A DNA stretch of 51,063 bases, from the NCBI GenBank assembly GCA_018700525.1, contig JABITN010000102.1:1-51063 (forward strand). The letters are read 5' to 3'. Positions 14,331 to 23,058 of this stretch are shown here, piece by piece; the stretch's first letter is position 1, and each line of letters starts with the position of its first letter. The notes under the pieces are model-generated. The model saw nothing but the letters and a program-made list of their open reading frames with translations, ran no database searches and was not told the DNA's origin. The position numbers were made by a program, and so were the translations under genes. The stretch is from Opitutales bacterium (lineage in GTDB: Bacteria > Verrucomicrobiota > Verrucomicrobiia > Opitutales > Opitutaceae).

Positions 14331-14451
14331 TTAGCGGTGTCTGTATACCAGAGCGTTGAAGATGCCTTTGGGGGACGAGAAAATGGCGCGAAAGACGCTA
14401 GGTAGGTCACTCTCTTGAGGCTCGAGTACTGACTCCTTGGATATCCCCTTT

Positions 14452-14635
14452 GGACGCAAAAAGGGCCCCGCTAGGCGAGACCCTCTTAACAAACTACAAA
14501 CTACAAACGAAAATGAACAAATCAACTTGTTCTGCTTATGAGCAGACGAAGTAGGGAGCGAAGCGTTCAAAATCGGGTAAGTTTTTTTAAGAGAGCTCAG
14601 AAAGCCTTGGAAGAGGGTGACGCAGGGGGGTGCGA
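14452..14635 (-). repeat. Structured dispersed element, copy 1 (candidate small RNA)
   Basis: Shares about 180 bp with copies 2 and 3: ggacgcaaaaaggg at the left, the hairpin region, acaaactacaaac, gcgttcaaaatcgggtaag, then a run of T and agagagct. On the minus strand it ends in a strong terminator-like hairpin (14458-14486: GGGTCTCGC, loop CTA, GCGGGGCCC, then TTTTT). An upstream hairpin GAACAA/TTGTTC replaces the GGACAA/TTGTCC of copy 2, a compensatory change. This copy lacks the right-hand motif present in copies 2 and 3. Confidence 0.75.
14458..14486 (-). terminator. Intrinsic terminator hairpin of element copy 1
   Basis: Minus strand: nine-pair stem GGGTCTCGC/GCGGGGCCC (two G-U pairs), loop CTA, then TTTTT. 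Read on the plus strand the two wobbles become C-A mismatches, so the functional RNA is the minus-strand one. Confidence 0.65.
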
Positions 14636-14722
14636 AGCGTCAGTCGACGAAGTCGAGAGCTCTTGACGCGGCGTAGCCGGGTATCCAGCGGACTGAGGCT
14701 TAAAGGGCATCGCGCACGTGCT

Positions 14723-14787
14723 AGCGGCCGCTCGGAGATCGGCCATACCCCTCCAAAAGAATGGCCGCTCGGAGATCGGACGCTACC
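14723..14787. repeat. REPIN-like pair D, direct rather than inverted
   Basis: Two copies of ggccgctcggagatcgg in the same orientation (14723-14749 and 14761-14787), 11 bp apart, both ending in a tacc/ctacc tail. Unlike copies B, E, F and G they are tandem, so they cannot form the long hairpin. Located 78 bp past the NIPSNAP gene's stop. Confidence 0.75.
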
Positions 14788-14864
14788 TTTAGTCTTCCAA
14801 AAAAGACCTACGGATATTCGTCCAGCGGTTCTCGAATTCTTAGGGATTAGTCGCTAGGCTCACG

Positions 14865-15662
14865 CTAGAGCTGGGAGCCTTTAAGCGGCTTTAGATAGTT
14901 GGTCGTCCGTCCGGACACTCCCCCCTTGCTCCACTTTGGATTGGTTTTAGCTTTGTTCCAGCGCGGATTATCGCGGAAGGATTGCCAATCCTTGGCCTGA
15001 TCGGCTTCGTCATCGAAAGTAACCATATAGCGAAGGCTCGGGCGCTTTCCCCCTATAAGCGTTTCCGAATAGAATATCGCCTCCAGCCCGGACTCGGCGA
15101 ATATATCGGCTTCGATCTGATTGAACATGGCGATCTTGTTGGTGCTGCCCGCTTCGCTATGTCCCTCGTATTCGCGCATCTCGAAAATCCGCTTCTTTCC
15201 GGTATCGGGAACGGTTAGTTGCGGTTTGACCCGCATCGCCCGGAGCAAGTGGCTCTCAATCCGACGGTAGGCGGGATCATCCTTCGTCGCGTTGAGGTAG
15301 TCGGCGCCCACCTTTTTGTATTCCTTGTCCGCGTTGAGCTTCGACACGGAACTCGCGAATTGACCGATGGTCTTGTAGGGCACCAGCACAATTACTTGAC
15401 CGAACTGCTCGCCTTCCTGCGGCTTGGTTTCCTGGAAAAGACCGATGTTCTTTATTCCCTGGCGATTCAAGGCAGGGATGGCGGCCTCCGCCCAGTAATT
15501 GGCGATACGCTGCTGCTGGGCCGCGGAATCGACGGTATACACGCGAAGCTCGTAGTGTTCGCGTGGGTTGGGTTTGGGCTTATCTTGGGCCATAGAACTG
15601 TTTGCTAAGGTGAAAAGCGCAAGGAGCGCTAGAGGTGATGTTCGGAATAGGATATACTTCAT
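14865..15662 (-). CDS. NIPSNAP family protein, exported
   Basis: 265 residues. Signal peptide MKYILFRTSPLALLALFTLANSSMA, then HYELRVYTVDS, the start of the first NIPSNAP/EthD-like ferredoxin-fold domain (about 36-135). The second domain starts at KKRIFEMREYEGHSE (about 158-250) with WQSFRDNPRWNKAKTNPKW. Tandem NIPSNAP proteins of this kind are common in PVC bacteria; the fold is a dimeric alpha-beta barrel and the function is unknown. Exported copies often appear with sugar-degradation genes. It stands alone: downstream are repeats and upstream is a 520-bp gap before a divergent gene. Confidence 0.87.
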   Translation of the reverse strand: MKYILFRTSPLALLALFTLANSSMAQDKPKPNPREHYELRVYTVDSAAQQQRIANYWAEAAIPALNRQGIKNIGLFQETKPQEGEQFGQVIVLVPYKTIGQFASSVSKLNADKEYKKVGADYLNATKDDPAYRRIESHLLRAMRVKPQLTVPDTGKKRIFEMREYEGHSEAGSTNKIAMFNQIEADIFAESGLEAIFYSETLIGGKRPSLRYMVTFDDEADQAKDWQSFRDNPRWNKAKTNPKWSKGGVSGRTTNYLKPLKGSQL

Positions 15663-16182
15663 TTTTGGGATGGTAACTGGTTAAAGGTTATAACGCAGAT
15701 TCCCTTGGGTTTAGACATGCCGAGCAATGTTTTTCTGAGATTTTCCAAACTCGGCCACCATTTCCCCTTGGAACTCCCCGATTGCAACTCAAGGAATACC
15801 GCAATTCGCAAGGCGTTTTCCACTCGCCCATGACGTCTTGCGTCATACCTCCGTCACCTTTCATGTCGCTAAGTTCAAGAGCGTAGGGGCCACCTCACTA
15901 CAAGCAGGCAATTCCTAAGCGATCGTACGCCGCTGCTATCTCAAGATGGTCGCGGAAAACGAGGCCATGCAGTTTTGGGGTTTCGCCAGGTAGGTCATTG
16001 CATGAAGGTTTCAGCGCTGGCCTTTTTGTCACCCTCCTGAATTTGGTTCGGGATGGATAGATTTTTGAGGAACGCCCCTGCAAAGAAAAATGAATTGCTA
16101 GTAGGTCTCTCTTGAAAGACGGTACCCTAGACTAGAACCTTGAAGCTCTCGTTCCGATAAACGGAACGTACCGGCTAATCCT
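15663..16182. other. Divergent intergenic region
   Basis: 520 bp between the divergent NIPSNAP and DUF5916 genes. No open frame with coding character, repeat copy or tRNA was seen. It contains the inverted repeat near 16150-16168 listed separately. Promoters for both genes must lie here but cannot be assigned with confidence. Confidence 0.5.
16150..16168 (+). promoter_or_regulatory. Small hairpin just upstream of the DUF5916 gene
   Basis: cgttccg - ataaa - cggaacg, a perfect seven-pair stem with a five-base loop, ending 14 bases before the ATG at 16183. It could be a leader hairpin affecting translation or an operator half-site pair. There is no second copy in the window to support either. 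Confidence 0.35.
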
Positions 16183-18444
16183 ATGCCCCAAGCGTTTCGA
16201 TATATCCTGTTTATCTTTTGGTTAACTGATTGCTCCCTCGCGGGAGGGGAGTCTCCTATTCCGGAACGACAAGAGATACCTGCTTACCGATTGGATAGAG
16301 ATTACCGGCCGGAGATCACTGCGGTCCGGCTAGACGAACCACCGAAAATTGACGGCCACCTCGATGAGGACGTGTGGAAAACCGCCCCGATGGCCGGACC
16401 CTTGCTGCAATATCAGCCTAGTTCCTATGCGCGTATGGACCAGGAGACGTTTTTTCGCGTGGCATACGACGAGAACTATTTGTACATAGCGATCTGGTGT
16501 TGGGATACCGAACCGGATCGAATAGTAGCTCGCTACATGCGCCGCGATGACGAGCTGTGGAATGACGACTCGGTCAATATCAACCTCGACACGTTTAACG
16601 ACCAGCGGAACAGCTACACCTTTCTCGTCAACCCCAACGGTACGCGGCACGACGCTATTTCCACTAACAACGCGAACTACAATTATCGGTGGGATGGCGT
16701 CTGGAAAGCGAAAACCCAAATAACAGATTACGGTTGGCAGGTGGAAGTGGCCCTGCCTCTTACGACATTAAGTTTCGATCCGGCGAGTTCCCAATGGGGC
16801 CTCAACCTTGGCCGACGGATAAAGCGTTCGGATCAACGGGGTATTTGGTCTTCGCCGAGAAACGCTATCCGCGGCTATTATATGTCGGAGGCGGGAAAAT
16901 TGAATGGCTTAAGCGGTCTCAAACAAGGTTTGGGTCTTGAGCTGAATCCTTATATTCTTGGAAAGCAATCGGAGGATAAAAGTCGGGGAACGGATGATTT
17001 TGAATTCGAGTGGGGTGGCGACTTTCGTTACCGCATTACCCCCAAAATGAGTGCCTCCTTAAGCTACAATACCGACTTCGCCGCTGCCGAGACCGATGCC
17101 CGGCAGGTCAATTTAACGCGCTTCTCCCTGTTCTTTCCGGAAAAGCGACGGTTTTTTCTCGAAGATACCGGTGTATTCAATTTTGGAGGACTGGGCGGTC
17201 GATTCAGGCGAAGGACGGGAACCCGAGCGTCGCCGGTCATTCTTCCGTATTTCAGTCGCCGCATCGGATTGAGCAACGAAGGGCAAGTCGCACCCCTAAT
17301 AGGGGCGGCCAAACTTTCCGGCCGGGTCGGGAATTACAATATCGGAATCATCGATGCCGTTGTCGAAGCCAACGGAGACCTGGACAGCCAGAACGCATTT
17401 GTAGGGCGTGTAACGCGCGAGATTCTCGATCAATCCACCATTGGGGCGCTGGTAACTCATGGAGATCCCAATTCCGATTACGACAATTTGCTTTTGGGAA
17501 CGGACTTTCAGTACCTGACCAACAAGTTTCTCGATAACTACCGATTGGTAGTAAACGCCTTCGCTGTGGCTACGGAATCGGACCATCCGGATTTCCAGGA
17601 TGGCTTGGCCCCGGTATTCGGCAGTAGCATCGTTCTTCCGGCCGATGAATTCGATATCGAGGTGGCGCTCATGCACGTGGACGACGATTTCAATCCGGCC
17701 ATGGGTTTCGCGCCGCGAACGGGAGTCCGCCGGTATTATACGAGATGGGCTTATAAACCCTTTATCGAATCCAAAGATTGGTTGCGTCAGGCGTATTACA
17801 GCTATGAGGGAGAATACATCACGGACCTTTCCAACCAGCTGCAATCTTCCAAACACCTCATAACGCCCTTCCATTTCCTGTTCGAGTCGGGCGACGAAGT
17901 TTTCCTCGAAATCGAGAATTCAGCCGATGTTCCTGGCAGCGATTTCAGAATCTACAACGTTGCTGGCGATGAAAATGACGTTTTCATTCCTGTCGGGGAT
18001 TATTCATGGACCCGTGGAATCATTGGGTTCCAGACGTCTTCCAGACGAAAACTCCAATTCCAGCACGATTACTCCTTTGGCGATTTTTATGACGGTACCC
18101 GAAGAGAGAATACATCTGAATTAACCTACTTGCCGTCCAAGTATTTTGGGGCGGAGATGAGTTACTCCAATCAAGACGTTGAATTGCCTGCCGGAGACTT
18201 TAATATCAAACTCGCGTCCTTGACGGCGTTGATCAATTTCACTCCGGATTTCACCTGGTCTAACGTGGTGCAGTACGACAATGTTTCCGACTCCTTGGGG
18301 GTTAATAGCCGGTTGATCTGGGAGTACCGCCCCGGAGCGCGTATTTTTCTCGTTCTAAACCAGAGCTACCTTGATGAAAGGACCGGATTCGTCCGCAAGC
18401 AAATGGATACGACCCTAAAGTTGAGTTCGATATTCCGGTTCTGA
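16183..18444 (+). CDS. DUF5916 outer-membrane protein with N-terminal CBM9-like domain
   Basis: 753 residues. Short signal region (RYILFIFWLTDCSLAGG), then a CBM9-like domain at about 45-245: AVRLDEPPKIDGHLDEDVWKTAP, YDENYLYIAIWCWDTEPDRIVA, RDDELWNDDSVNINLDTFNDQRNSYTFLVNPNGTRHDA, WDGVWKAKTQITDYGWQVEVALPLTTLSF. The rest is DUF5916-type beta-barrel: YNTDFAAAETDARQVNLTRFSLFFPEKRRFFLED, PYFSRRIGL, and many alternating aromatic strands ending in the outer-membrane-like C-terminal SSIFRF. The family is widespread in Bacteroidota, Gemmatimonadota and PVC bacteria, with no settled function; a role in sugar binding or outer-membrane passage is inferred. It is monocistronic, reading away from NIPSNAP. 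Confidence 0.88.
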   Translation: MPQAFRYILFIFWLTDCSLAGGESPIPERQEIPAYRLDRDYRPEITAVRLDEPPKIDGHLDEDVWKTAPMAGPLLQYQPSSYARMDQETFFRVAYDENYLYIAIWCWDTEPDRIVARYMRRDDELWNDDSVNINLDTFNDQRNSYTFLVNPNGTRHDAISTNNANYNYRWDGVWKAKTQITDYGWQVEVALPLTTLSFDPASSQWGLNLGRRIKRSDQRGIWSSPRNAIRGYYMSEAGKLNGLSGLKQGLGLELNPYILGKQSEDKSRGTDDFEFEWGGDFRYRITPKMSASLSYNTDFAAAETDARQVNLTRFSLFFPEKRRFFLEDTGVFNFGGLGGRFRRRTGTRASPVILPYFSRRIGLSNEGQVAPLIGAAKLSGRVGNYNIGIIDAVVEANGDLDSQNAFVGRVTREILDQSTIGALVTHGDPNSDYDNLLLGTDFQYLTNKFLDNYRLVVNAFAVATESDHPDFQDGLAPVFGSSIVLPADEFDIEVALMHVDDDFNPAMGFAPRTGVRRYYTRWAYKPFIESKDWLRQAYYSYEGEYITDLSNQLQSSKHLITPFHFLFESGDEVFLEIENSADVPGSDFRIYNVAGDENDVFIPVGDYSWTRGIIGFQTSSRRKLQFQHDYSFGDFYDGTRRENTSELTYLPSKYFGAEMSYSNQDVELPAGDFNIKLASLTALINFTPDFTWSNVVQYDNVSDSLGVNSRLIWEYRPGARIFLVLNQSYLDERTGFVRKQMDTTLKLSSIFRF

Positions 18445-18530
18445 CAGCGCGTATTGAGCTTTTGGGATTTTAAACCCCACGGAGGAGTGGGGCCTCGCCC
18501 ACCAACCCGTTTGGCTGTTCTCTCGTGCTT

Positions 18531-18754
18531 GGACGCAAAAAGGGCCCCGCTAAGCGAGACCCTTTTAACAACCTACAAACTAGAAAAGGACAAACCCGTT
18601 TGTCCTGCTTATGCTAGACGGGGTATGGTGCGAGGCGTTCAAAATCGGGTAAGTTTTTTTGAAGAGAGCTTGGGATTCGTTAGAAGATGATGACGCGGGG
18701 ATAGCCAGGCGGGTCGCTCCCTCGAATTCAAGCGCTAACCCGTTTTTGTCCCCC
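18531..18754 (-). repeat. Structured dispersed element, copy 2 (candidate small RNA)
   Basis: Full-length copy of about 220 bp: ggacgcaaaaaggg, terminator-like hairpin, hairpin GGACAAAC-GG-GTTTGTCC on the minus strand (perfect eight-pair stem), gcgttcaaaatcgggtaag, T-run, agagagct, gatgatgacgc. It ends at the motif attcaagcgctaaccc followed by gtttttgtcc. Lies in the 353-bp gap between the convergent DUF5916 gene and the membrane-protein gene. Confidence 0.8.
18537..18567 (-). terminator. Intrinsic terminator hairpin of element copy 2
   Basis: Minus strand: GGGTCTCGC, loop TTA, GCGGGGCCC, then TTTTT. The plus strand also shows TTTT after the stem but with two C-A mismatches. Confidence 0.65.
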
Positions 18755-18797
18755 TGCGTTAGAGCGTTTCGCAAAGCGTGCTTTGGGACGAAGCGAG

Positions 18798-19637
18798 CTA
18801 ATACCCACGCGGATTGCGTCCATTGCCGCGCATTCGCTGCTGCTTAGGCGCTGCCGGTGTCTCCAAATAGAGGCTGTACCACTCATCCCCCAATCCTGCA
18901 TTGGAGAAACTCTTTACACGATCGTTGGATAGGTGCTCCCAGTTCCGGCTGAAAGTACCGACTCCAGTGACCTCTTTGGCCTTCAACAAGATCCGACGGG
19001 CTTCAGCAGGCTCGTCAACCTTAACGTAGATCCACGACATCAAGCCGTACAACAAAGTACCGCGATCGCCCCGAGACCACCTAATCCGGCTCTTAAAGAC
19101 CTTTTTCGCGCCCGCCAAATCATCGTTCTTATAACAGCGCGCCATCCTCATGGCCGCCGCTGTGGGGTCCATCATCATCGGGCCCCTTAGGAAACCGCAG
19201 GTGGCAAGGATCTCGTCAACCTGGTCGAACTCCTTGAGCTGGTAGTGAAACTGCATGCGCAGGGTAGCAATCTGGCGTCCCGTGAGCAAGGACCACTTCC
19301 GGAAGGGTTCGAGTCCCTTGGTGAGCTCTAGCCCCTCCTTAAACATGACCTTTTGATCCATTTCGAGCTGGCGTTGTATCTGCTTAACATTTCCGCCGGG
19401 TTTGTTCTGGAACAACTGCACCTTCCGCTTCATGCGCCCCTGAGCGGCTTGCATGCTTCCCTGGAGCTTGCCTTGGGCCTTGGACATCTTTTTCCGAACC
19501 AGGAATCCGACCAGGAAAAACGTGCCAGTAAATCCGGTAATGCTAAAGAAGACCGTCGCCCCCGTACTTATCTGCGAAGCGGTCAAGGCACCAGCCAATG
19601 CGATAGCGACTAGCGCTGAAATGAGAAGTGAAAGCAT
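18798..19637 (-). CDS. Membrane-anchored protein with TPR-like repeats, unknown function
   Basis: 279 residues, not recognised as a named family. Two hydrophobic segments at the N-terminus (LSLLISALVAIALAGAL and TGATVFFSITGFTGTFFLVGFLV) form a membrane hairpin. A basic, Gln-rich stretch follows (KKMSKAQGKLQGSMQAAQGRMKRKVQLF). A helical cytoplasmic domain from about 110 has TPR-like spacing (LRMQFHYQLKEFDQVDEILATCGFL..., AMRMARCYKNDDLAGAKKVFKSRI..., YGLMSWIYVKVDEPAEARRILLKAKE). The tail is Gly/Arg/Asn-rich (RMRGNGRNPRGY). Probably a scaffold for protein partners. It sits between two copies of the structured element and has no operon partner. Confidence 0.78.
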   Translation of the reverse strand: MLSLLISALVAIALAGALTASQISTGATVFFSITGFTGTFFLVGFLVRKKMSKAQGKLQGSMQAAQGRMKRKVQLFQNKPGGNVKQIQRQLEMDQKVMFKEGLELTKGLEPFRKWSLLTGRQIATLRMQFHYQLKEFDQVDEILATCGFLRGPMMMDPTAAAMRMARCYKNDDLAGAKKVFKSRIRWSRGDRGTLLYGLMSWIYVKVDEPAEARRILLKAKEVTGVGTFSRNWEHLSNDRVKSFSNAGLGDEWYSLYLETPAAPKQQRMRGNGRNPRGY

Positions 19638-19958
19638 ACTTTGAGACCTTTTTGTCTAATAAATTTAATTCGTACTGTGATTTTTCCAAAGATGACATGG
19701 GAGTTGTCAGGTCGGTCTAGACCTCAAGAACTGACAGCGCATAAAAAACACCCCCCACCATCGGAAAACAGCATTCAGCGGAATTACCAACTCGAATCAA
19801 GCCTGGTCTTGATACGAGTACATAAAGTATCAATCCTTCCTCTTTGCGCCTAGCAAAATTCCGAATGGTTTCAGAATCCATAGCGGGTTAGCTCGTAAGT
19901 CTTAACATCTGAAAATGTAAGACATCTCGGTCTGAGCCCATTTCGCTCTTTTGAGCTG

Positions 19959-20180
19959 GGACGCAAAAAGGGCCCCGCTAAGCGAGACCCTTTAAACAAA
20001 CTACAAACTAGAAAAGAACAAACCCACTTGTCCTGATTTAGCTAGACGGAGTGGGGAGCGAAGCGTTCAAAATCGGGTAAGTTTTTTCGAAGAGAGCTCG
20101 GGACGCCTTGAAAGATGATGGCACAGGGGCCGGGAGGCCGGTCATTCCCTCAAAATTCAAGCACTGACCCTTTTGTCTCC
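19959..20180 (-). repeat. Structured dispersed element, copy 3 (candidate small RNA)
   Basis: About 220 bp, full length like copy 2. Minus-strand hairpins: GGACAAG/TTTGTTC with G-U wobbles (intermediate between copies 1 and 2), and the terminator stem. The conserved gcgttcaaaatcgggtaag block, T-run and agagagct are present, and it ends at attcaagcactgaccc then ttttgtctcc. Confidence 0.8.
19964..19994 (-). terminator. Intrinsic terminator hairpin of element copy 3
   Basis: Minus strand: GGGTCTCGC, loop TTA, GCGGGGCCC, then TTTTT; identical stem to copy 2. Confidence 0.65.
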
Positions 20181-20213
20181 ATGATCTTCGTATTATGTGA
20201 TAATGGCTTTCAG

Positions 20214-20239
20214 AGTTTAAGTACTAGCCCTCTTTGTCT
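20214..20239. repeat. Isolated copy of the element right-end motif
   Basis: gtttaagtactagccc followed by tctttgtct, a variant of the motif that ends element copies 2 (18725) and 3 (20155). A fourth variant is at 21047-21072. Confidence 0.5.
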
Positions 20240-20293
20240 ACTCACCCATGTGTTAGTGTCGGTATTGATGAAGTATCATATCGCTTGAGTCTC

Positions 20294-21046
20294 TCAGGTG
20301 TAGACGATTTCCATGGGTAAGCCCCTGGAGTCTTTCGGAGGGGCGGGCGGCATCGTTTTCAATTTATCTTCAGGTGTGCTGGCGACTACCATGCCGACCA
20401 ATGCATCGAGGATGTCATCCCGTGCCACTTCCCGTCTCAGATATTTGTTGAGAGCCCTGTCAACGTGGTCGTGAGCGTTTGGAAGGTGTTTTTCCAACAC
20501 TTGCAAACGTTCCTCGAATCCCGTTATCCTCTTTTTTGAATACTTCGTGGGTTTCAGATCATTAAGGCTCCAGAAGCATACCTCAGGATGGATCTCTCGA
20601 ATTAAGTATCCAGAATCGCGATTCGATATTAAGTAATCATTCACTTCGCGAATCTTCGGAGTGATAGCGAATGCCTGTCTGCTCAATTTTTTCCCGATCG
20701 CTCGTAAGCTTAGCTTTTGGGCCTCCTCGTAATTTGCTGCTTCGAGAACTGAAAAAACCGGGGCGGAAAAGACAGAAGAAGCTCTAGGGCTGCCGAGCGC
20801 TTTTCGCACGTCCCCATCACACGCTCTTCCTTCGGAGTTTGAGTCGATTAACCCAATCGGAATATCTATAAAAATACGAGAGCCAACGGGAAGTGCACTC
20901 GTTAGTTGGTGAATGTCGGAAGCCACGCCAAACGAGACCGATTTCTGATCTATCCGAAAATAGAACCAACCGGCTTTACATCCGTCTACGCCCACTGCTG
21001 TGCTCACTATTCGCGACCCATTGTTAAATGATTTGATGGATATCAA
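20294..21046 (-). CDS. DUF429 domain protein
   Basis: 250 residues, cytoplasmic. The N-terminal VGVDGCKAGW motif (about 18-27) and the Asp-bearing FIDIPIGLID (about 58-67) are the signature of DUF429, an RNase H-like fold. Further family blocks are SVFSAPVFSVLEAANYEEA, REIHPEVCFWSLN, RITGFEERLQVLEKHLP and the C-terminal DDILDALVGMVVAS. The family is a predicted nuclease or nucleotide-related hydrolase without a firm biochemical role. It lies between two copies of the 25-bp right-end motif (20214 and 21047), which may mean it arrived with, or was flanked by, that element. Confidence 0.87.
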   Translation of the reverse strand: MISIKSFNNGSRIVSTAVGVDGCKAGWFYFRIDQKSVSFGVASDIHQLTSALPVGSRIFIDIPIGLIDSNSEGRACDGDVRKALGSPRASSVFSAPVFSVLEAANYEEAQKLSLRAIGKKLSRQAFAITPKIREVNDYLISNRDSGYLIREIHPEVCFWSLNDLKPTKYSKKRITGFEERLQVLEKHLPNAHDHVDRALNKYLRREVARDDILDALVGMVVASTPEDKLKTMPPAPPKDSRGLPMEIVYT

Positions 21047-21072
21047 GATTTAAGAACCGACCCTTTTGGCTA
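21047..21072. repeat. Isolated copy of the element right-end motif
   Basis: gatttaagaaccgaccc followed by ttttggct, related to the ends of element copies 2 and 3. It lies right at the start of the DUF429 gene, opposite the copy beyond its stop. Confidence 0.45.
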
Positions 21073-22868: not shown

Positions 22869-22880
22869 GTTTTGTATAGT

Positions 22881-22992
22881 GGTAGCGGCCGATCTCCGAC
22901 CGGCCACCTCTGCAATGGGCTGGGTTTGATATGGCCGCTCGGAGATCGGCCGCTACCTATTGGGTTGTGCCGCTCGGGGATTGGGCGTTACC
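22881..22992. repeat. REPIN-like inverted repeat pair E with an extra degenerate half
   Basis: Inverted pair at 22881-22957: left core with one change (tccgaccggcc), loop starting cacctctgcaatg as in copy B, right core exact, ends ggtagc/gctacc. A third, degenerate unit in right-half orientation follows at 22967-22992 (gccgctcggggattgggc, then gttacc). It fills the gap between sulfatases 1 and 2. Confidence 0.85.
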
Positions 22993-23058
22993 TTTTGGTT
23001 GGGCTGGGGTTGTGCACTTACGTCTTGCGGCGTGCTGCGAGATCGAGCTCACTGGATT

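Follow-up and report, generated by a model that had tools for sequence, protein, structure and literature searches.

The window, a stretch of 51,063 nucleotides (nt) from an Opitutales bacterium (contig JABITN010000102.1), contains three copies of a short unit, all on the minus strand, which almost certainly belong to a family of small RNA (sRNA) genes. The family extends across the order, and its three representatives in the window result from amplification in this lineage. The evidence for an RNA is the unit formed by a promoter-like block, a conserved core and a terminator, and not the small hairpin on the 5′ side of the core. On balance, the best explanation of the whole is probably a family of trans-acting sRNAs that are driven by an extracytoplasmic function (ECF) sigma factor, act without Hfq and repress the mRNAs of outer-membrane proteins.

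Read 5′ to 3′ on the minus strand, each unit consists of TTTTGAACG, 16 nt, a GTCT box, the small hairpin, the core and the terminator. The box is GTCTAGC in copies 2 and 3 and GTCTGCT in copy 1; the core reads CTAGTTTGTAGTTTG in copy 3, CTAGTTTGTAGGTTG in copy 2 and TTTGTAGTTTGTAGTTTG in copy 1; and the terminator has the layout AGGGTCTCGC-YTA-GCGGGGCCC-TTTTT. Across the family, the predicted RNA of ~74–106 nt, its start placed from the promoter, would run from a variable 5′ part through the highly conserved core CTAGUUUGUAGUUUG[A/U]UAAG to a terminator rich in G and C. Read by eye with a small peptide in mind, the core has stops in two of the three frames. The initial annotation had described a three-copy element at these places, and repeat comparison, BLAST and a covariance model all agree with it. 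The window repeat comparison yields families D1 and D2, the two other copies of D2 (60 nt) being 90% and 92% identical to the reference. BLAST of copy 3 against its own genome returns C125:14452-14628, 18519-18756 and 19940-20200 (the query itself), C186:161-403 and C112:16317-16561, with E-values from 2.1e-133 (the query itself) to 1.6e-45, and at E ≤1 the covariance model matches exactly three copies in the window, which were also among the copies used to build it. The two shared blocks named in that annotation are present; acaaactacaaac is complementary to the core; gcgttcaaaatcgggtaag, complementary to the promoter-like block, belongs to the promoter region, not to the transcribed RNA. The intervals given there also include upstream flanks, which the copies have in common as related duplicates.

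All of the following positions are on the minus strand. In copy 1, the −35-like TTGAACG lies at 14564–14570 (sequence reading and the upstream scan of core sites) and the −10-like GTCTGCT at 14541–14547 (sequence reading). The predicted sRNA, its 5′ end placed from the promoter, spans 14458–14538, with the 5′ hairpin at 14514–14533, the core at 14490–14507 and the terminator at 14458–14484, and the covariance-model match covers 14449–14572. Copy 2 has TTGAACG at 18636–18642, GTCTAGC at 18613–18619 and a predicted sRNA at 18537–18610 (5′ hairpin 18587–18606, core 18569–18583, terminator 18537–18564; model match 18528–18644). Copy 3 has TTGAACG at 20064–20070, GTCTAGC at 20041–20047 and a predicted sRNA at 19965–20038 (5′ hairpin 20015–20034, core 19997–20011, terminator 19965–19992; model match 19956–20072). 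In copies 2 and 3 the boxes were likewise read from the sequence and the 5′ ends are likewise predicted; the sRNA parts of all three copies were assigned by folding together with sequence reading. Repeat comparison and BLAST delimit the upstream flanks of copy 2 (18643–18756) and copy 3 (20071–20200), which are common to other dispersed copies and carry a motif resembling repetitive extragenic palindromic (REP) elements. Near copy 1 (14545–14640), a GAGCGAAGCG-type motif (family D9) occurs twice, once within the promoter spacer and once more at a distance of 74 nt.

Genome contigs were scanned for the core only, and the upstream sequence of the 53 sites found on 37 stretches is thus unselected. 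TGAAC lies 53–96 nt upstream in 50 of the 53 sites; of the remaining three, one is cut by a contig end and two are apparently chance matches. Where one copy holds several TGAAC, the best-fitting one was taken. G(T/C)CT follows GAAC after 17 nt in 38 of the 50 copies and after 18 nt in four, giving 42 core-found copies with both boxes at 17–18 nt. GAAC and GTC boxes at such a spacing are the general layout of ECF-sigma promoters. Control of the predicted sRNA genes by an ECF-type sigma factor is therefore likely, the class being judged from the boxes. The pattern TTTGAACG-N16-GYCTA has 42 matches in 57 genomes, of which 35 are sRNA genes and seven are not, and controls give 10 matches; an earlier pattern ending in YCTAYC matched only one place in the window's own genome, and the GYCTA ending was used instead. 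Three of the 35 sRNA genes (G047:C5, G042 and G045) are divergent, with model support of 31–41 bits; the seven other matches score at most 17 bits or do not match the model. The promoter pattern is found almost exclusively at sRNA genes. A wider regulon driven by this promoter was considered and rejected, the seven non-sRNA matches of 42 not exceeding the 10 control matches. A sigma-70 promoter was also rejected: the copies have no minus-strand match, and the region has four matches against 4.6 expected by chance, among them one 9-of-12 match on the plus strand that overlaps copy 1.

For structural analysis, 75 copies with GAAC and a near-core were collected; three overlapping or truncated and eight redundant copies were removed to give 64, and leaving out five more gave the 59 of alignment A1, from which the covariance model was built. 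The invariant columns of this alignment are partly a product of its construction, and the selection-free count for the promoter is that of the core-only scan. RNAalifold retains the terminator stem alone, with 11 pairs, eight of which have at least one two-sided change. In this stem, 92 cells are changed on both sides against 29 in shuffles, a value reached in 0 of 500 shuffles, as is also the case for cells paired and for the covariation score; it is to be noted that related sequences can exceed shuffles without structure and that a terminator is expected at this place anyway. Less striking are the pairs changed (8; 32/500 shuffles) and the further pair types (22; 54/500). Sliding the partner strand lowers pairing from 93% to 39–69%. 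When 27 predicted transcripts (74–106 nt, with starts guessed from the promoter) were folded, the terminator formed in all 27, and the core was mostly unpaired in the window copies and partly paired in several relatives. As the initial annotation had pointed out, the terminator stems of the window copies pair with G-U on the minus strand. Direct reading of the sequence shows T5 after them on that strand.

The same annotation had drawn attention to compensating changes in the 5′ hairpin. The variants agree with that description: copy 2 has GGACAA/TTGTCC, copy 3 has GGACAA/TTGTTC and copy 1 has GAACAA/TTGTTC, one pair occurring as AU, GU and GC. Over seven close copies, however, only one of six pairs is changed on both sides and 211 of 500 shuffles do equally well. 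The hairpin folds in the three window copies and in some relatives only, and is absent from the best fold of two other copies of this type shown from the same genome; as a conserved element it was rejected, in keeping with the RNAalifold result. The wider set of copies thus bears out covariation for the terminator stem (59 sequences) and not for the 5′ hairpin (seven sequences). The proposal of a minus-strand sRNA gains from order-wide conservation, the near-fixed spacing of the promoter-like block and the covarying terminator. Four features go beyond what had been described: the promoter, the finding that conservation is highest in the largely single-stranded core, the tandem home locus beside an rsmE-like gene and the possible porin targets.

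Of the seven copies in the window's genome (4.8 Mb in 268 contigs), three lie in the window, contigs 112 and 186 hold one each, and a tandem pair on contig 222 stands upstream of an rsmE-like gene. In the order, 188 of 372 genomes, from 75 of 100 genera, have a covariance-model match (E ≤0.001), as do 139 of the 232 genomes with a completeness of ≥90% and a contamination of ≤5%, under strict filters by which weak members are lost and with rough E-values. In a sample of 387 genomes from the phylum, 37 have a match at E ≤0.0001; 36 belong to the same order, and the remaining one (G457) belongs to the same class. The order is taken here as drawn by the genome taxonomy tool; NCBI puts Pelagicoccus in Puniceicoccales. 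Names met in the core scan include Pelagicoccus, Verrucomicrobiae bacterium DG1235 and metagenome-assembled genomes (MAGs) labelled Opitutaceae, Opitutales, Puniceicoccaceae, Verrucomicrobia and others. Two stretches, L086 and L100 (the latter from a ‘Gammaproteobacteria’ MAG), lack both a promoter-like block and rsmE and match the model only in part; they were set aside as apparently due to chance, leaving 35 genuine stretches. The match in G457 (L328, 543–658; 42.4 bits) has a GAACG box, a terminator and, in the −10 position, ATCTATC, and no recognisable core; it may be distantly related, or an unrelated gene that shares the promoter, and is left as an unconfirmed member. Distant relatives with altered cores (e.g., TAAGTTTGTTGTTTG) occur at L331 (G124), L329 (G013), L330 (G014) and L332 (G202), where the GAACG and GTCT boxes and the terminator are retained. 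Seed drift in relatives with altered cores could be used to test target co-evolution.

Of the 35 genuine stretches, 26 have a same-strand frame with the N-terminal sequence pattern of RsmE downstream, beginning 83–168 nt from the start of the last core in 25 and 479 nt from it in one; two examples were confirmed by PF04452 with PF20260. Three of the nine stretches lacking it are cut off by the stretch end. Genomes of the same genus mostly have two units (A and B) at this locus, and G029 has five. Units both in tandem and dispersed come with a separate promoter-like block and terminator. Flanking sequence on one or both sides is common to the five extra copies in the window's genome, less of it in copy 1, and an upstream REP-like motif recurs in four of the five; these features suggest that the extra copies were spread by recombination or by a REP-type element. 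A plasmid or phage origin was rejected, no plasmid or phage record being matched.

The REP-like repeat itself (family D6) is ~28 nt long, reads roughly GACAAA(A)GGGTYAGYNCTTRAA..TTGA on the minus strand, and was placed by repeat comparison at 16003–16031, 18721–18749, 20150–20178, ~20215–20244 (by eye) and 21043–21071. It flanks sRNA copies, and BLAST finds similar sequences on other contigs and in other genomes; the repeat may have a part in the spread of the copies. Elsewhere in the window, a 26-nt repeat, GGTAGCGGCCGATCTCCGACCGGCCA, and its inverted copies (81–96% complementary) form two clusters 8 kb apart (14718–14788 and 22879–22993), which look like another palindromic repeat element.

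Rfam 15 gives no match in the window at the gathering threshold, only six tRNAs in 11 related loci, and in the region of copy 3 only isrC, on the opposite strand at 15.7 bits against a threshold of 39, in agreement with the initial annotation, which knew of no named family. Hfq (PF17209) was found in 0 of the 57 genomes, the window's own included, and in 5 of 14 control genomes by the same search; any pairing would therefore be Hfq-free or helped by another protein. A search of the open-access literature by title returned no description of this family and no described trans-acting sRNA in this order; an excerpt of one paper counts 8 annotated sRNAs for the whole Planctomycetes–Verrucomicrobia–Chlamydiae (PVC) group (PMC9029176).

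Candidate targets were sought in the 57 genomes with the core complement CAAACTACAAACTAG, allowing one mismatch. Of 10 matches outside the sRNA genes, four end 1–9 nt before a start codon: those of TorF genes in G006 and G029 and of predicted secreted-protein genes in G020 (199 amino acids, no family match) and G013 (only match far below the family cut-off). A fifth lies in the TorF leader of G007, where the gene start is uncertain, in G015 a sixth precedes a start by 30 nt, and the remaining four are inside coding or otherwise unrelated sequence. Counted mechanically, 8 of the 10 matches (two of them inside a longer frame) have the start of a 100-codon frame within ~40 nt, against 3 of the 14 matches of the reversed pattern; of these three, one was judged plausible and two lie in open frames read as internal or chance. 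The G006 protein passes TIGR02001 (TorF family putative porin; 57.1 bits, cut-off 47.15) and also matches PF09694; its identity is 47% with the G029 protein and 74% with that of G007. An outer-membrane location of the non-TorF candidates is predicted from signal peptides and sequence.

TorF homologues occur in 49 of the 57 genomes. In a first set of 30 TorF leaders (those of G038 and G043 shorter), the duplex energy with the consensus core averages −17.0 kcal/mol, compared with −12.2 kcal/mol in 167 control leaders (p 2.5e-7), where the controls use the most upstream ATG of long frames, an imperfect choice, and related genomes are not independent. None of 200 shuffled cores reaches the observed mean, and with the three ascertainment genomes left out, the 27 remaining leaders still differ (p 5e-6), 12 of them falling in the best 5% of controls. 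Second TorF paralogues at L301 (G006:C560) and L294 (G009:C44) have leaders with strong predicted pairing (−26.6 and −20.1 kcal/mol).

Complementarity to the core thus exceeds controls in several relatives, and targeting of porins is supported, as far as predicted pairing goes, for a subset of relatives and not for the window's genome. Direct repression of outer-membrane protein mRNAs by the predicted sRNA is, in our estimate, about an even proposition. A number of results weigh against the overall explanation. Leaders in these genomes are often rich in A and C, and against 38 A/C-rich controls the TorF excess falls to p = 6e-4; a second set of 35 more distant TorF leaders, some with uncertain starts, gives p 0.04, with 5 of 35 in the best 5%. 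With whole own sRNA transcripts, only 5 TorF leaders out of 21 fall within the best 5% of controls, that of the window's genome being average (fraction 0.48). Within three mismatches, the 20-nt complement finds only the sRNA copies and C112:4850 in that genome, and the latter was rejected as a target, as it is not at a gene start. In the order, 184 of the 372 genomes have no model match under the strict filters, the 5′ hairpin does not covary significantly, and a generic terminator scan missed the three window terminators, listing the 5′ hairpin of copy 2 instead. Several of these points would suit an sRNA that is not a porin repressor, its UG-rich core acting on other mRNAs or binding a protein: the core is conserved more widely than the TorF sites, many TorF leaders have no site, no close target is seen in the window's genome and the whole-transcript test is weak. 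We consider this alternative rather unlikely, given near-perfect core complements at the start codons of predicted outer-membrane or secreted genes in several relatives and an energy excess that persists without the ascertainment genomes.

In another alternative, the unit acts in cis on the rsmE-like gene, as its leader or attenuator, and the terminator stops transcription unless a signal permits read-through. The downstream RsmE-like frame in 26 of 35 stretches speaks for it, but not every copy lies directly upstream of rsmE: the window copies have no such neighbour, and copy 2 converges on the gene at 16183–18444. Moreover, two to five tandem units each carry a promoter-like block and a terminator, and the core is strongly conserved, unlike what is expected of a leader retained for its terminator alone; a leader is accordingly improbable. 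Still less credible, and indeed very improbable, is a mobile or REP-like repeat that merely ends in a terminator and has no RNA function. The shared flanks of the five extra copies, the REP-like motifs upstream of four of them and the several short repeats of the region would fit such an element, yet in many genera the home locus keeps its place beside a fixed gene neighbour, promoter, core and terminator persist while the intervening sequence and flanks diverge, and plasmids and phages give no match.

In the trans-acting sRNA model that we prefer, each copy would be a free-standing gene. An ECF-type sigma factor would start transcription from TTTTGAACG-N16-17-G(T/C)CT, and transcription would end ~74–106 nt downstream at the intrinsic terminator. 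The largely unpaired UG-rich core, CUAGUUUGUAGUUUG[A/U]UAAG, would pair in vivo with the 5′ leaders and start regions of outer-membrane protein mRNAs, the TorF-family putative porins being the best-seen candidates, and pairing, independently of Hfq, would block translation of these mRNAs during envelope stress. The family would originally have resided upstream of the rsmE-like gene, in one to five tandem copies, and extra copies in the window's lineage would have been amplified elsewhere together with flanking REP-like repeats. More tentatively, envelope stress in Opitutales may have an Hfq-free noncoding arm: an order-wide, dosage-tuned sRNA family (1–7 copies per genome, through tandem arrays and REP-flanked dispersal) with a near-private ECF promoter, which represses TorF-type porins and other outer-membrane proteins and is positionally coupled to the rRNA methyltransferase gene rsmE. 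If correct, the model would provide a defined, searchable sRNA family in Opitutales, and the question could be addressed in a culturable genus such as Pelagicoccus, in which tandem copies are present.

Known systems resemble the predicted one in different respects. RybB, MicA and MicL, the enterobacterial sigma-E sRNAs, combine a stress-sigma promoter, a short sRNA and outer-membrane protein mRNA targets, and act with Hfq. The present family would share with them a predicted stress-sigma promoter, a short predicted sRNA and outer-membrane candidate targets, whereas Hfq was found in none of the 57 genomes and no Rfam sequence match links the two. The CcsR1–4/alpha-r15 sRNAs of alphaproteobacteria are homologous stress sRNAs with tandem copies and a common single-stranded motif, which is CU-rich, and are under RpoH control; the likeness lies in tandem homologous copies with a shared single-stranded motif, and the core sequence here is different, as is the predicted sigma control. 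The closest functional parallel, by analogy, is FoxI/FoxJ of Fusobacterium nucleatum. According to an excerpt of the relevant paper, which also names MicA and RybB with their shared OmpA target, these sRNAs depend on sigma-E and repress the porin FomA in a bacterium without Hfq and ProQ (PMC11005410). As far as that excerpt goes, the likeness is one of stress-sigma sRNAs repressing an abundant porin without Hfq, with sigma control and targets only predicted in our case, and the difference is one of a C-rich seed in FoxI/FoxJ, a UG-rich core here and an unrelated phylum. If the model holds, the Opitutales family would be a further case, after Fusobacteria, of stress-sigma control of porins by small RNAs without Hfq.

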